Source: Hoplostethus atlanticus (taxonomy: Eukaryota > Chordata > Actinopteri > Trachichthyiformes > Trachichthyidae). Taken from it: a DNA stretch of 64,000 bases. Shown in pieces: positions 3,185-59,281 of this stretch. Every line of letters begins with the position of its first letter. Within the stretch, counting starts at the first letter, position 1. A program made the position numbers and the translations under genes. Below the pieces are notes generated by a model. The model was not told the DNA's origin and ran no database searches. It saw only the letters and a program-made list of their open reading frames with translations. The stretch lies in assembly GCA_034670405.1 (NCBI GenBank), contig JAXDDX010000073.1, forward strand, positions 2,275,001 to 2,339,000. The letters are read 5' to 3'.

Positions 3185-3979
3185 CTCCAGGGTCAGACCT
3201 GAGTCACGTCATTACCTGCAGGACACGTCACACACTGAAGCCCTTGACAGATTACATGAATAGACGACCATGACAGAGAGTGCAAGTGCTGCTGCGATTT
3301 CCATGGTGCCTGGTTTAATTATAGGTTTTGTGCACTGCTCCAGAGGATATTTTGAGACTCAATATACTGAAGCATCCGATAAACATCAATTGTATAAACA
3401 ATTTCTGGAACTCATTAAAAAAAAAAATTCTCTCAACTCACATTTTCATCAAAACGAGACAAAAGTAAGTAAGTCATCCCTCACCTTGACAGAAACAATA
3501 TTTTTGAAAAAGACCAATCAGGTTTCCATTGACTGATTCCAGGACTGAAACAACTTCCCTCAAGCTTACCATTGATCTCCTGGTAACTACACATGCAGGG
3601 GACCATTCAATACTTCAGACTGGGCAGCAGGGCAGTGTTGTGATTAGGGAAATGCTGGAGAAGCTGAAGTTCCTTCAAGCAAAACACTAAATCCTGACCA
3701 GCTCCATGGGTGCTACTCTGCAGCTGAGCCGACACTTTGACTTCCTTGTGGAGGGGATTTCTCCTTTGTGGGAATTAACAGTAGATCAAACCTTGTCCAG
3801 ATTACTAGTATGACAAATTGTCATCCACATTTTTATTTCCTCTCAAAATGCAGCACTGAGGCTTTTAACCTTAACAAGGAAACATCACCCTTCTTTGCAC
3901 AAGCTGTTCATTTTAAAATTGATTGAGATTTTACTGATTCCTTTTCTGACTGTCATTAATCTTTTAACCCCATGAGCTG
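3185..3979. other. Sequence upstream of the b3gat1 start codon
   Basis: This should include the boundary of a noncoding 5' exon and the start of a large 5' intron of b3gat1. Acceptor-like CAG triplets lie near 3199 and 3219 on the minus strand. No conserved open frame was seen. Confidence 0.4.
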
Positions 3980-32937: not shown

Positions 32938-33334
32938 CTTGTAGGCAGTGGCGGCTGGCCAATAGAGGGGCGCTAGGGCGCCGCCCCACCACTCCCCACA
33001 TCCTAGACTTCATTGAATAAGACTTTAAAAATTACTTTGAATATTCTTTTTTTTTAAATGAGCGAGGTAAATATTATATAGTTAGTGAGTAGAATGTATA
33101 ATCTGCAATAAAATGTAGATTAAAATTGTTCTACGTTGTCTAAAGTTACTGCTAGGTCACGTATTTCCGGCCTTGGGCGCAAAAATCTTTGCCCATTGAC
33201 TCTCGTTATAAGTTGTACATGCCCAGTTCGCTCCTCTCAATACAAGAGATAGGAGCTTGGTGCGCCCCAACAGCATTTATCTGAATGCTGCTGATTTACA
33301 CACGACCAACCACTGGTTGGCAGCAGAGAGCGAG

Positions 33335-33690
33335 TGGCTCGTGGTACATCTGACATAAAATGCGCCAGAATGAGACAATATACTCGGTCGTTTTCAAGGA
33401 GCTGGTTTAGTAGGAAGGCTTGGCTAACTGTATGTAGTGACACCAATGCTTTATTTTGCTTTCCCTGCACCCTTTTTCAAACGACAGGTCTCAGACCCAG
33501 CATGGATTCAGACAGGTTTGAATGATTTAAACCACATATCAGAAAAATCAAAAGCAAATGTTTGGGAAAGTAAACATAGCTGCTCAGCTTGATGAAGGCT
33601 ACAGGATAGGGATCTGTAAGCATAATGAAGAGGTTGACGCTGTGGTCACATCCTGTCTAAAATAATAAACTGTGTCAAGTTCTGTGGTGT
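33335..33690 (+). pseudogene. hAT transposase N-terminal remnant (TTF-type zinc-finger region)
   Basis: The frame at 33334-33525 has YTRSFSRSWFSRKAWLTVCS followed by ALFCFPCTLF, a pattern of the TTF-type zinc-finger part of hAT transposases and ZMYM/ZBED-like domesticated proteins. A one-frame slip then gives TGLNDLNHISEK. Further on, FGKVNIAAQLDEGYRIGI and KHNEEVDA appear, and later a KIINCVKFCG-like block. Recognisable similarity ends near 33690. At least one frameshift, plus loss of the DDE/RNase H-like domain, make it non-functional. Its presence supports the hAT assignment made from the element's ends. Confidence 0.8.
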
Positions 33691-34656
33691 CATAGAGTCA
33701 TTGAGAAAAATGTATGTACAAAAAGTTTAAGCCACAAGGTGGCAAAGTCATATGGCTTTGAGCCAGTTCACTCAGCTTTTTGATGGCACTGGGTATTTCA
33801 AATGTTATTTTCTATTAGGACTTACTATGTTCATAATTTTCTGCCATTGTCTCAGGGTTTTGTGTTGTCAGATTTCTTTTGCACTTATCGAGGCACTTTT
33901 CGCTTACTTTAGTCTTTCACCATTACATATTGTAGTATAAAAGATAATTATTATAAAGAATTTGCACTAATTGAAGTACCTTAACTTACCTTAAGCATGT
34001 TTCATTACAACAAATGTTGTAAGTTTAAGTTTATGATGCAATGTGAATACAACATTTTTAATCTCTTTAATTTTACTTCTGACTGAAATTTGGATTGCAG
34101 AATTGTGATTGTGAAACTTGGAAAATTCTCATAACTGTCTAAGTCAGCCTCTCCGACCAGACCCATGTTGTATGTATGCACTATAACTAGTCTGTTCTGT
34201 TGTCTATGTTGTCTCTTATGTTTGGAGTATGAGACTGTGTGACTCCAAGGAAGGTCAAGCATAATGGCAGCAGCCTGGGGGGCTTTGGATGGGCAGTGTG
34301 TGATCACCTTTTACAGACAAAAAGAGATTCTTAATGCAGCTTCTGCAGAAAATAAAGCAGCTAGTATTGTTAGTTTCTTTTTTGTTGATATTTGCTTCCT
34401 TCATTTTCTATTAGGGATTATTTGTGTCTATTAGTATTTTTATTTATTCATTAGTGACCATGTGACTCTGGGTGTGAAATGTGTGCCGAGGCCACAGAGC
34501 TCAGATTGGCTGTGACAAAATGACATTTTGAGAGACACAATGGGCACCAGATGAAACTCAGATCTCAGACTTCACTCTACCAACCTGAAAGAAACAGCGA
34601 TTTCATTGTCTTAGTTAGCAAACTGTTACAATTTCATTCATTTAACAAAAGCAATT

Positions 34657-35843
34657 ATGGAGGAGAATTTCTGTCCAGGTAAGACAAATCTACTTGTATT
34701 TTTCTTTTTTAAACAGATCTACTATCCTAAAACAGTCTTGCCAGCCAGTTCCTTTACTGTCTGGTTAATTGTCTCTGTGTGATAAAAGATGAAGCTAAAT
34801 GTTTTAGAACTGAAACTCTCTGTCAGCCTATGTTTTTGCTAACATGCTGACATACCTTGTCTCACTTCTTTCAGCGTGGATGGATCAAGTCATTCGCCTC
34901 AACGCCCTCAAAGGTGATGATGACGAATTCATGGCTTACATCTCAGCCAACGACCATGGGGAGAGACGATATGCTTACGCTCCAGCCTCTATCTCTGGAT
35001 ACGCTGTTGAGCTCAACAGTGCCCTGTCCCCATTTTCTCAGCCGACCGTAGGCTCCAGATCTACCTGTGGACTTGAGTCTCCACTTCTGGGAACCAGTAG
35101 TCAGCGCAGAGGAAGACGTACCTCTCGTAGCTAAGGACGAGACTTCAGGAAATGCTGAACCATGCAGCCATCCAGCCCAGGACGCCGAGAGTCCATCCAA
35201 CCTGCTCAGAGATGCTGAGGCTTCATTCAGCATGGCGCAAACCAGTGAGACCATAGAGCTCATTGGGAGGCTGCTGCAGCAATCCTGCATTGGTGACCTA
35301 GAAGACCACGTGTATGAATACTGCAAGAATGTACTTGGTGAAAAGTACTTCTATGCTCCTTCATCTGATGTATCTGGATTTGTGGTTGACTGCTCTTCAC
35401 CCTGTGGGCCGTATATAAACCAGCTTGATACATGGGAGCCAGTCGTCACAGCAGATTCTGACTCAACGCAGTTCCTCTCAGACTTGGAAAAAGAGGAAGA
35501 GGGCCAAGACCATGTGGTCCTCAAGGAAGACAAAGTCATGTTTTCTGCCAGTGATCCAATTGATGAAAGTGCCACAAGTGTCCATGAAGATGCAAATCCT
35601 GAGTGTGATGAGAAAAACAACATCACTACTTTGCTCTGTGCTGGGCCTGACAGCAGTATCACTGCGCAGGAGGAAGGAGACTTCGTCCAAGGGCTCGACC
35701 CTGCAGGACTTGACTGCTCCAGCGTTGAGATCACCGCTTCAAAACCAAAGAAAGAGAGGAAGAATTCTGGCTGCTTCTCTTGGCTCTTCCGTCTCTTCAG
35801 GCGAAAGAAGAACAGCAAATCCTCTAATGCAAATCGTACTTAA
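34657..35843 (+). CDS. Unrecognised two-repeat protein carried inside the hAT element
   Basis: No family recognised. Exon 1 (34657-34678) encodes MEENFCP plus one base and has donor GGTAAGAC. The 196-nt intron ends in TTTCAG. Exon 2 starts at 34875 in phase (A8, W9). A YAYAPASISGYAV block lies at about residues 40-52. Between about 35049 and 35075 the reading frame must move by +1 to join the 258-codon frame starting at 35067 and ending at 35843. In that frame, WEPVVSAEED opens the sequence, and a second copy of the same unit follows: LLQQSCIGDLEDHVYEYCKN, then YFYAPSSDVSGFVV (residues 94-107) and TWEPVVTAD (122-130). An acidic region follows. The C-terminus is basic and aromatic: CFSWLFRLFRRKK (236-248), possibly a membrane-binding or palmitoylated segment. 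There is no signal peptide. The total would be about 330 residues. AATAAA follows at 35869-35874. The intron argues against a retrocopy. It could be a working gene with a sequence error, a young pseudogene, or a shorter protein starting at 35067. Confidence 0.7.
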
Positions 35844-35868
35844 ATCATTATGCTTATTGTCATGTTCA

Positions 35869-35874
35869 AATAAA
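35869..35874 (+). terminator. Polyadenylation signal of the cargo gene
   Basis: AATAAA 26 nt after the stop codon and still inside the transposon, so the transcription unit appears complete within the element. Confidence 0.6.
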
Positions 35875-36317
35875 TGTATTTAAACTAAATACATTTAAAC
35901 TAAATACATTGTGGATTCTATCTGTACAAGTGTATTTGTATAAAGCCAAGGGATCTACTATTCTTTGTTTTGTTTTAATGTCATTTTTTGTCATTTTGGA
36001 ACAAAACTCAATATTGCCTACAGAAATAGAGTCTTGTTTTGGGGCTGATCCATTGGCTACCAAAGCAGGGAAGCTTCCACTGCAGACCTTTTCGAAAACA
36101 AGGAGGCATCTGCAAGATGATGAGAATGCATTTTCATCAGCAGCCCACACCTGATTCCTTGTCATGTTACTTTACAGTTAAATGTTTTACAGCTCAGCAA
36201 ATACAAATAAAGGCCTTTTCATTTATAAATACACTGATGATACCTTAGTACATGTTTGCTTGATTTTTGGTATAGCCCCCCCTGGAGAAAAATGCACCAA
36301 CCGCCACTGCTTGTAGG

Positions 36318-48370: not shown

Positions 48371-51300
48371 AGAATATTAGATGCATGGAGTTTGCCAAAC
48401 CTTATGCTTGAGTAAATCGATGCCACTTAGGCATGGTGAACCTTTTCTAAGAGCAAGAGCAAGTAGTAGGTAACAACTCCTCTCCAAGTAGAGTCATGCT
48501 TGAAAGTTTGTGAATCCTACAGGGGCTGCTCATTATTTCATATATTATAGAGGAACAACTTTATAAAATCCTTATCTAAACCTCAAATCTTAATGAGGAT
48601 ATTCTAAATAAAGAACATGCACAAATATTATATACTTTATATATTCTATTCTATACTTAAATTCTATACTTTCATTGTTTATTTAGCAAATCTAGTTTAT
48701 TTAACAAACTCAGATATTCCTGTGTGCAAAAATATGTGAACTCATTTAATTAATAACTTGTGTCTCCTCCTTTAGCAGCGATGACTTGGAGTAAATGTCT
48801 CCTAACCACTGATCAGTCTCTTCATCTTCCTGGAGGGATTTTCTCCCACTCCTCCTTACTGAACTCAACCAACTCGGTGAGGTTTGAGGTCTCACATGAA
48901 CAAACGCTTCAGGTCATGACAGCATCTCAGTTGGATTTAGGAGTAAGGAAGACTTGCTATGAGATAACGACTGTATGTTCCTGTAGAAGCCATTAGTCAA
49001 TCTGATTCAGCTTTGCTTCTAAGAAATTTTGTTTTGCTCCTGAGTTCCTTGTAAAATACTACACTACCCACAACCTTTAGCGAGTTCCCATCAATAGTAG
49101 AGGTCACTGTTACCATAGAAACGCTCCAAAGTTGTACATGGTTGTCAGAAAGACCAGAGTGAAGTAACGTTAGCCCACTGTTTGCCAACTTGGCAACTTT
49201 GCTGCTAAATTTAGTGACTTTTCAGATCTCCTCCCTGGTGACTTATTCTCAAAAATAACTAGAGACAAATCTAGCTACTTTTTTACCATGGGGAACAATG
49301 TTTATGTGTTGACTCCCAAAGTCTTTGGTGACAAATTGGTACAGCTGGAACAAAGCATAGATAACTCCTTATTGAGTCTTGAATGAGATCCTCATGATCA
49401 TTTAAAAATCACCAAGACAGACAATCTCTTTCAGTTTCTAATTATTTTACAATGAGTTCCAAGAGGAGGGAACAGAGTGAAACAAAAAGCCCTTTCGCCT
49501 GATTCAGTTTGAACCTTACAGACCAAAAAGGCAACAATTTCTTCCTAAAGAGACATAAGAGCAATAGGAAGCAGACCCAAAATGACTTTGTAGATAAAAG
49601 CACAGCAATGATTTAACCTATGAGGGAACAAGGTACGCCTAGCAAGAATAAAATGTAATAAGCCAAAGATGCAATGATACAATAATAATGTAGTTTACAG
49701 TACATTAATTTATTTGTGCAGTGATAAAAATAGAAGCAAAGTGATTAAAAATGATGATAAAAAGCACAAAACACATGCAAATTACTAATTTGTGGTGAGT
49801 CTATAAACCTCAAGGGGTTTAAAAAAATATCTCAGATCAATACAAAGAAACAAGAAAAGCAACAATCAAAAAAAATCTCAAAAAAACACTAATTCTCTGA
49901 AAGCATATGTTGGGAAAATTAATTCATGGAATAAAAGAGCATTTCAATCTATCTTTAGTAAAAGTCACTACCAAAATGCATCAGCTGCAAATAATACATT
50001 ACTTTAGCTCCATCTATTGGTAAGATCGAGACCTTTCTACTACCAAATCACTGTGCAAAGGTCAAACACGAGCTAAACTAATCAAAGAGTTTATAGAAAA
50101 GACAAGATAAGTGACCTCCTCTTGCGTTCTATAAAATAGGTCTGAATACCTTTACTTATCAGCAGGCTTACACCTTTTTCATCTTCTATGTTCCTGACTA
50201 CTTACATATGGACAGTAGCATGTTGTAAAAGATTTTCATGCTATTAACCAAACACACAAATACAAAATAACAAAACAGGAGCACTCACCTTCGGCCATAT
50301 GAACACAAGAGACTTTAGTTATGGAGATTGTGTCAAATGTGCAGAGCGACTGAGACGTCTTTTAAACGTTGTGTCTATGCTTTAGCTCTCATATAACCCA
50401 GGATCTTTTTGGCTGTGTTTTGCAGTTTTAGACCAAGCAGTGAATACATTGTTAAATATTGAAACAATGCACAATCAGCTGTAAATATCAGAAATGTGCA
50501 CCAGAGAAGTGTTTTGCAAAAATTGTTGCAATCTCAGTGAAAAGCAGAAAATGTTCTTGTAGGTTATTTTTTCAGAATTGGTTTGAGGGTTTGGTACATG
50601 AGTGTCAGGTTTTGGTCATTGTGTCTCAAGTGTTTACGTGTGTAAACAATTGAGGACAACTGTAATTGTGTATTGTGTGTATCATGTAACCACCCATGTC
50701 TTAGCACCTTCCACAAATAAGTTAGCAGCGTCAAAGATAGCTGTATTTGAAAAATGCAGATATTGCCAAGCCAGTGATATGTAGTTGATATCAATAATTT
50801 GCTTTATGTGCATGTTATGTGAATTCTGGCTCAAAAGTTTGGGTGTACAGTGCCCCTGGGATCAATTACTTGCACTGTCTTACATTTCTATCCTACCAGG
50901 TTCTTGGCGTCCCAGGTGTAACTCAGTCCCTGATGAGACAATGCAATGAAACCCAGCAGGGCTCTGGGCCCGGAAGACCAGGGTTGAAAACCACGCTATT
51001 AGTATATTACTAAGACAGTAAACCTTCCATTCTCTCGGTAACCTCCACATGCTGCATTCCTGGCTTGTTTCCAATATTTGAATTAGCTTGGCAAAAAAAA
51101 AAAGTGCTGAATCTTTTTGACGATATTGATTGATTCCATCACTCTATTCCTATGGTCAAATGGCTTCCTATGGCTTCCTCAAATACAGTGTAATCAGTTG
51201 CTGCTACTGAGCAACTGGCTAGTATTCACCAACACAACCCTACTGTTCAACATAACTGTTGTTGATATTACGAACCAAACTCTGACTTTATTTCCTGGGG

Positions 51301-53837: not shown

Positions 53838-59281
<5,444 letters not shown>

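Follow-up and report, generated by a model that had tools for sequence, protein, structure and literature searches.

Introduction

Plants provide many well-documented cases of genes captured by cut-and-paste transposons, whereas in animals, by the account of Tan et al. (2021; PMC8277862), captured pieces are mostly short, single-copy and without transposition. Across the 100 animal genomes of that study there are 370 Pack-TIRs, of which 208 belong to hAT, and the median captured size is 224 bp. Its multicopy cases in reference genomes are four only (three frog, one alligator), and include the frog Pack-hAT-N8_XT, which at 291 bp is found on three chromosomes. Single-copy animal cases are ascribed there to local gap filling, with the parent within 15 kb in 56.9%, and the multicopy type is tied to template switching followed by transposition.

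Here we analyse a hAT element that lies in a 64-kb window of Hoplostethus atlanticus DNA (the window being the whole stretch of DNA that was analysed) and carries a gene with an intron. Like the animal Pack-TIRs described in PMC8277862, its copies hold non-transposon DNA between hAT ends, have duplications of their own and point to capture at the DNA level; here, however, the carried segment is about 2.2 kb, it comprises a whole two-exon gene, and its junction with the element recurs at 60 places. The Drosophila Ssk-FB4, as outlined in PMC8277862, is alike in that an almost whole gene was captured and moved to several sites, but it belongs to another element type with ends of about 700 bp and four copies, for which signatures of positive selection are reported, whereas ours is a hAT with dozens of copies that look mostly neutral. 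The histone H3 gene carried by a hAT in Dothideomycetes (PMC6710886) was likewise amplified to high copy number, but is described as being without introns, a transcript or retrocopy, while the intron is kept here. The Pack-hATs of maize and rice (PMC8903248) share with our element the hAT ends, the 8-bp duplications and an interior derived from genes, and form clusters of more than 100 hAT elements in maize; these are plant elements, and the accessible text of that paper does not mention a whole intron-containing gene at such copy number.

The kind of event is already known, and what is new is the size of the captured segment and its copy number. A first-pass annotation of the window, made from the letters alone, had supposed that an apparently whole gene of host type in a vertebrate hAT would be unusual. 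As far as captured sequence in general is concerned, this had already been documented (PMC8277862); the unusual points are that the gene is whole and that its copies are so many, and the open-licence literature on hAT gene capture, to the extent that its texts were accessible, yielded no vertebrate hAT with a whole gene at high copy. Since such an element has, by our reading, carried a host gene with its intron to dozens of places, whole genes can be multiplied by cut-and-paste elements in animals, and not in plants alone.

A hAT unit with a broken transposase remnant

The unit spans 32946-36309 (3364 bp) between the two copies of its target-site duplication. Its features are as follows.

32938-32945 (no strand): left target-site duplication CTTGTAGG, exact 8 bp
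32946-32958 (+): left terminal inverted repeat, 13 bp
32946-34018 (+): left hAT arm, common to the cargo-free copies of the family
33558-33697 (+): transposase remnant, located by tblastn of P0001 and P0002 and broken between two frames
34019-36179 (+): putative captured host segment (cargo), missing from cargo-free copies
36180-36309 (+): right hAT arm, whose junction with the cargo recurs at 60 genome places
36297-36309 (-): right terminal inverted repeat, 13 bp, 12 of 13 positions as in the left end
36310-36317 (no strand): right target-site duplication CTTGTAGG, exact 8 bp

Scanning the window for an 8-bp duplication together with 13-bp inverted ends that have at most one mismatch and lie 0.4-12 kb apart returned this one unit, and the length, exact duplication and singly mismatched ends given in the first-pass annotation were all confirmed. 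The hAT target-site duplication is 8 bp long (PMC8903248, PMC6710886), and both this and the short terminal inverted repeats of a hAT are found here. Within the unit, the same scan showed no inner ends with an 8-bp duplication that would indicate a nested second transposon.

The inverted ends are short, and this is the sole point in favour of the idea that ends and duplication fell by chance around a resident gene. The same combination arose in none of 260 first-order Markov simulations (60 + 200), and copies exist genome-wide: in the 632.8-Mb assembly (1161 contigs, window included) the 13-mer end pattern has 1150 matches as against 21 for the control. We give a chance origin a vanishingly small probability and reject it.

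The database proteins P0001 and P0002 match the remnant with E values of 3.8e-10 and 1.5e-8. Since their alignments cover 33558-33635 and 33647-33697 in two different frames, the remnant is broken, in agreement with the dead hAT transposase fragment that had been proposed inside the unit from its letters. P0001 comes with PF14291 as a precomputed label that was not recovered by hmmscan; we take PF14291 (DUF4371) to be a domain typical of hAT transposases. Four PDB matches of the remnant (best E 0.044) look like chance and were set aside.

Elsewhere in the window, a possible 420-bp unit at 49041-49460 has an 8-bp duplication and 12-bp inverted ends with one mismatch, and at that laxity of scanning chance alone should produce about 0.9 units of this sort in each window. 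Host exons were also seen at 2008-2613 (-; glycosyltransferase family 43) and at 54299-57663 (+; major facilitator), which presumably belong to B3GAT and SLC37A4, respectively.

The carried gene is frame-broken in the window copy

The cargo holds the following transcription unit.

34657-34678 (+): exon 1, ATG, seven codons and one base
34679-34874 (+): intron, 196 nt, GT/AG (GTAAGA...CAG)
34875-35843 (+): exon 2, frame broken near 35075 in the window copy
35869-35874 (+): AATAAA signal of the cargo gene

When spliced, the window copy encodes 93 aa before it reaches a stop, and a longer open frame of 263 aa, at 35052-35840, is in a different frame. The sequence on either side of the break aligns to a single repeat further along the protein with a score of 76, where the maximum from 2000 shuffles was 49. 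For this alignment, as for one of the homolog searches below, the two frames were joined upstream of the break, and matches still lie to its left and right. Because this repeat alignment, with its matches, spans the break, the window copy is frame-broken near 35075; at this point it differs from 25 of the 29 examined copies. Thus the start codon, the 196-nt GT/AG intron and the AATAAA signal of the unit first described as complete-looking all stand, but its completeness does not. GC3 along exon 2 was uninformative. At about 34950-35060 in exon 2, the copies differ in a repeat some 36 aa long, its core DNA motif occurring 0 to 3 times per copy, and the gene seems to carry a length-changing minisatellite.

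A search with the cargo protein, suggested in the first-pass annotation, uncovered related loci within this genome, but no family above cut-off and no homolog outside. In Pfam the protein reaches the cut-off of no family and shows nothing hAT-like, and NCBIfam gives no family either; it has no relatives in the PDB and no scoring homolog beyond this genome among 690 and 1402 protein-database candidates. No cargo relative was confirmed in viral and prokaryote contigs by a search able to detect close relatives only. We do not claim a CLAMP domain (PF14769), the match being at 15.4-16.1 bits against a curated cut-off of 22.7. An AlphaFold model of the protein from one sequence has a mean pLDDT of 39 and was set aside.

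Copies of the cargo share one junction and have separate insertion sites

The 263-aa cargo query gave 152 genome matches, of which the best 150 merge to 107 loci. Over the matched part, 99 of these loci are at least 70% identical, 91 at least 85% and 83 at least 90%; the 107 take in host paralogs and a gene pair at C25 (described below), and hAT context is established for part of them. Counts of this sort suggest that transposon cargo may inflate protein-family counts in genome annotations.

The junction of cargo and right arm was found at 60 genome places (55 exact, five with one or two mismatches) and the control at 0, though some of the 60 are without the whole gene. As far as can be judged from sequence comparison, such recurrence of one junction points to a single capture followed by spread, rather than to many captures.

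We examined 29 cargo loci. Four are the window copy, L011, L013 and L018, and the others are 25 of the 30 best protein matches; what remains of the 30 is the C25 pair, which we treat separately, and a duplicate entry each for the window copy, for L011 and for L018. Every one of the 29 has a hAT arm or terminus on one side or both. In 13, the two ends occur together with an 8-bp duplication (11 exact, two with one mismatch), and all 13 duplications are different. L030 has both ends and no matching duplication, and at the remaining 15 one end is missing within the stretch fetched. The flanks of the 13 copies with duplications (300 bp on the left, up to 500 bp on the right) are dissimilar to one another. 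A second sample of 10 loci, comprising every fourth of the 40 junction loci outside the first set, had the right terminus in 10/10 and exact duplications in 3/10, with a duplication carrying two mismatches in L091. Two features of a multicopy Pack-TIR are thus found here, namely non-transposon sequence between the ends and several copies with distinct duplications. The window itself contains no second copy of the cargo, which fits the multicopy Pack-TIR type, a close parent being a tendency of the single-copy type and not a strict requirement.

Four cargo copies were compared with one another. Identity at the positions that align is 93.9-100% throughout the arms, the cargo, the exons and the intron, of which L011 is without exon 1 and the intron. 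Every hAT-borne copy having both exon 1 and exon 2 (25/25), as well as both C25 copies, has the GT + AG intron, as do 5/5 such copies in the second sample, and intron length ranges from 134 to 196 nt among the examined copies. Retention of the intron across the hAT-borne copies rules out a retrocopy and upholds the argument, first made from the window copy, that the intron means DNA-level capture. The further suggestion that the element, if other copies existed, might be spreading a gene family is borne out by the 60 junction places, the distinct duplications and the unrelated flanks.

Copies of the cargo gene in local clusters or in tandem were seen at C5 (7.28-7.72 Mb), C201 (312-318 kb) and C451. 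An ordinary host gene family grown by segmental duplication, with hATs nearby by chance, would account for the tandem or clustered copies at C25, C201 and C451, and the host family is itself repeat-rich; it is nevertheless very improbable in the face of distinct duplications, unrelated flanks and one junction at 60 places, and we reject it.

Cargo-free elements and hAT-free relatives

Searching the genome for the ends and the cargo, as had been proposed for checking the window unit, revealed end-to-end units, with and without the gene. From the first 100 listed places we hand-picked 20 end-to-end regions, longer pairs first. Target-site duplications of 8 bp flank 19 of them (18 exact, one with one mismatch), L009 having none. 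The cargo is present in three; the other 17 are without it and match the element at about 1-1073 and 3218-3364, or parts thereof. Five elements (L010, L012, L014, L016 and L019) are 2.3-3.1 kb long with the ends of the same family and exact duplications, and are without the cargo gene; large parts of them are unlike the window element, and nested insertions or other captured sequence may lie within them. L090 and L097 (1242 and 1825 bp) have exact duplications and keep the cargo/right-arm junction. Exon 1 and the start of exon 2 could not be made out in either, and both are probably internal deletions of cargo-bearing copies.

Relatives of the gene also occur outside hAT elements. At 274-278 kb of C25 there is a tandem pair of two intact 365-aa genes with the GT/AG intron at the same place, whose identity to a hAT copy is about 93%; no hAT arm was found near the pair in 10.9 kb. 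Four more distant paralogs (L062-L065) have open frames of 377 to 975 aa (that of L063 cut by the end of the stretch fetched) that consist of these same repeats and close with a similar C terminus, and no hAT arms were found within the stretches fetched. This C terminus is basic and aromatic, and the host family is uncharacterised; L066 and L067 are remoter relatives.

When the tree is rooted on L062 and L064, the hAT copies group with the C25 pair at the end of one long branch. Inside this group the pair is nested within the hAT copies, a placement that is weakly supported (0.70-0.73) and on which the pair may be either the parent or a former hAT copy whose arms have been lost. The left hAT arm is present in five copies (L031, L034, L038, L041 and L051) that continue into a longer 3' flank of the C25 type, which suggests a longer original capture, a second capture or a later exchange. 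The cargo's left edge also differs, being about 70 bp longer in some other copies than in the window copy.

Could the gene instead have been original to the hAT, the short copies having arisen by internal deletion at a short direct repeat flanking the cargo? A 7-bp repeat does flank the cargo in the window copy, as in typical internal deletions, and a tree of left arms mixes cargo-bearing with cargo-free copies and does not settle gain versus loss. Against this, hAT-free relatives have the same gene structure, the transposase remnant in the left arm is common to cargo-bearing and cargo-free copies, and the cargo protein is without a hAT-like Pfam domain. We regard an original hAT gene as quite unlikely.

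Because of the shared junction, the distinct duplications, the cargo-free copies and the hAT-free relatives, we conclude that a hAT captured and spread a host gene. The central idea of the first-pass annotation, capture by a hAT of an intron-containing gene of host type at the DNA level, is supported by the first three of these. In its full form, that a non-autonomous hAT took up the gene at the DNA level and was spread by transposase acting in trans, with the gene as a passive passenger, this explanation is in our judgement very likely correct.

The course of events would have begun with a non-autonomous hAT of about 1.3 kb that held a dead transposase fragment only. About 2.2 kb of host DNA, from the upstream region of the gene through both exons and the intron to the 3' region, would then have entered it, most likely by a switch of template while DNA within the element was being repaired, to which the flanking 7-bp repeat of the window copy may be related. 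Acting in trans, a transposase may have moved the enlarged element to many sites, after which the copies would drift and many would break, some of the best-preserved full frames remaining only because the spread was presumably recent. Since cargo-free elements, deletion derivatives and hAT-free relatives are found in one genome, the steps of capture, spread and decay or use are directly testable.

Private changes in the cargo gene look neutral

A complete frame of 330-400 aa with start codon and splice sites is present at 15 of the 29 loci (14 by the script rule, and L039 by length and C terminus), a proportion biased upward in that the loci are mostly the best protein matches. In the second sample the complete frame is present in 0/10; L096 reads 313 aa to an altered C terminus, and five of the 10 are without recognisable exon 1 and exon 2 start.

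These full frames bear on a different proposal, namely that the passenger is useful: the hAT-borne copies, or a subset of them, would be expressed and selected for the element or the host, the hAT having turned a host gene into a mobile, dispersed and functional family in an animal, which may in turn aid the spread of the element. The 15 complete frames among the best-matching copies, with their GT/AG sites, speak for it. So does the pairwise pN/pS among intact copies of 0.57 (95% 0.41-0.81), which could reflect constraint, and the lower N/S of private changes in the 15 intact copies than in the 14 broken ones (0.88 versus 1.30, in a count that includes the repeat stretch). However, the complete frame is absent throughout the second sample, and with codons 35-111 left out the N/S per site is 1.13 for private changes overall and 0.80 for shared changes. 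Divergence in the intron (0.024) is moreover nearly equal to pN (0.024), and frame-broken copies (the window copy, L013, L018, L042 and L095) lie between proper hAT ends with duplications of their own. A selected, functional family is thus unlikely in our view, both as a reading of these copies and as a statement about what the hAT has made of the gene.

Read plainly, these rates mean that the copies drifted neutrally once inserted and that any earlier constraint was weak at most. Since the private changes look neutral, the cargo gene is most likely a passive passenger. The frame break of the window type is also present in L030, L031 and L042, and the window copy and L042 each have their own duplication. 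As these two share the break and have separate duplications, an element can still move when its cargo is broken, provided that the break had a single origin.
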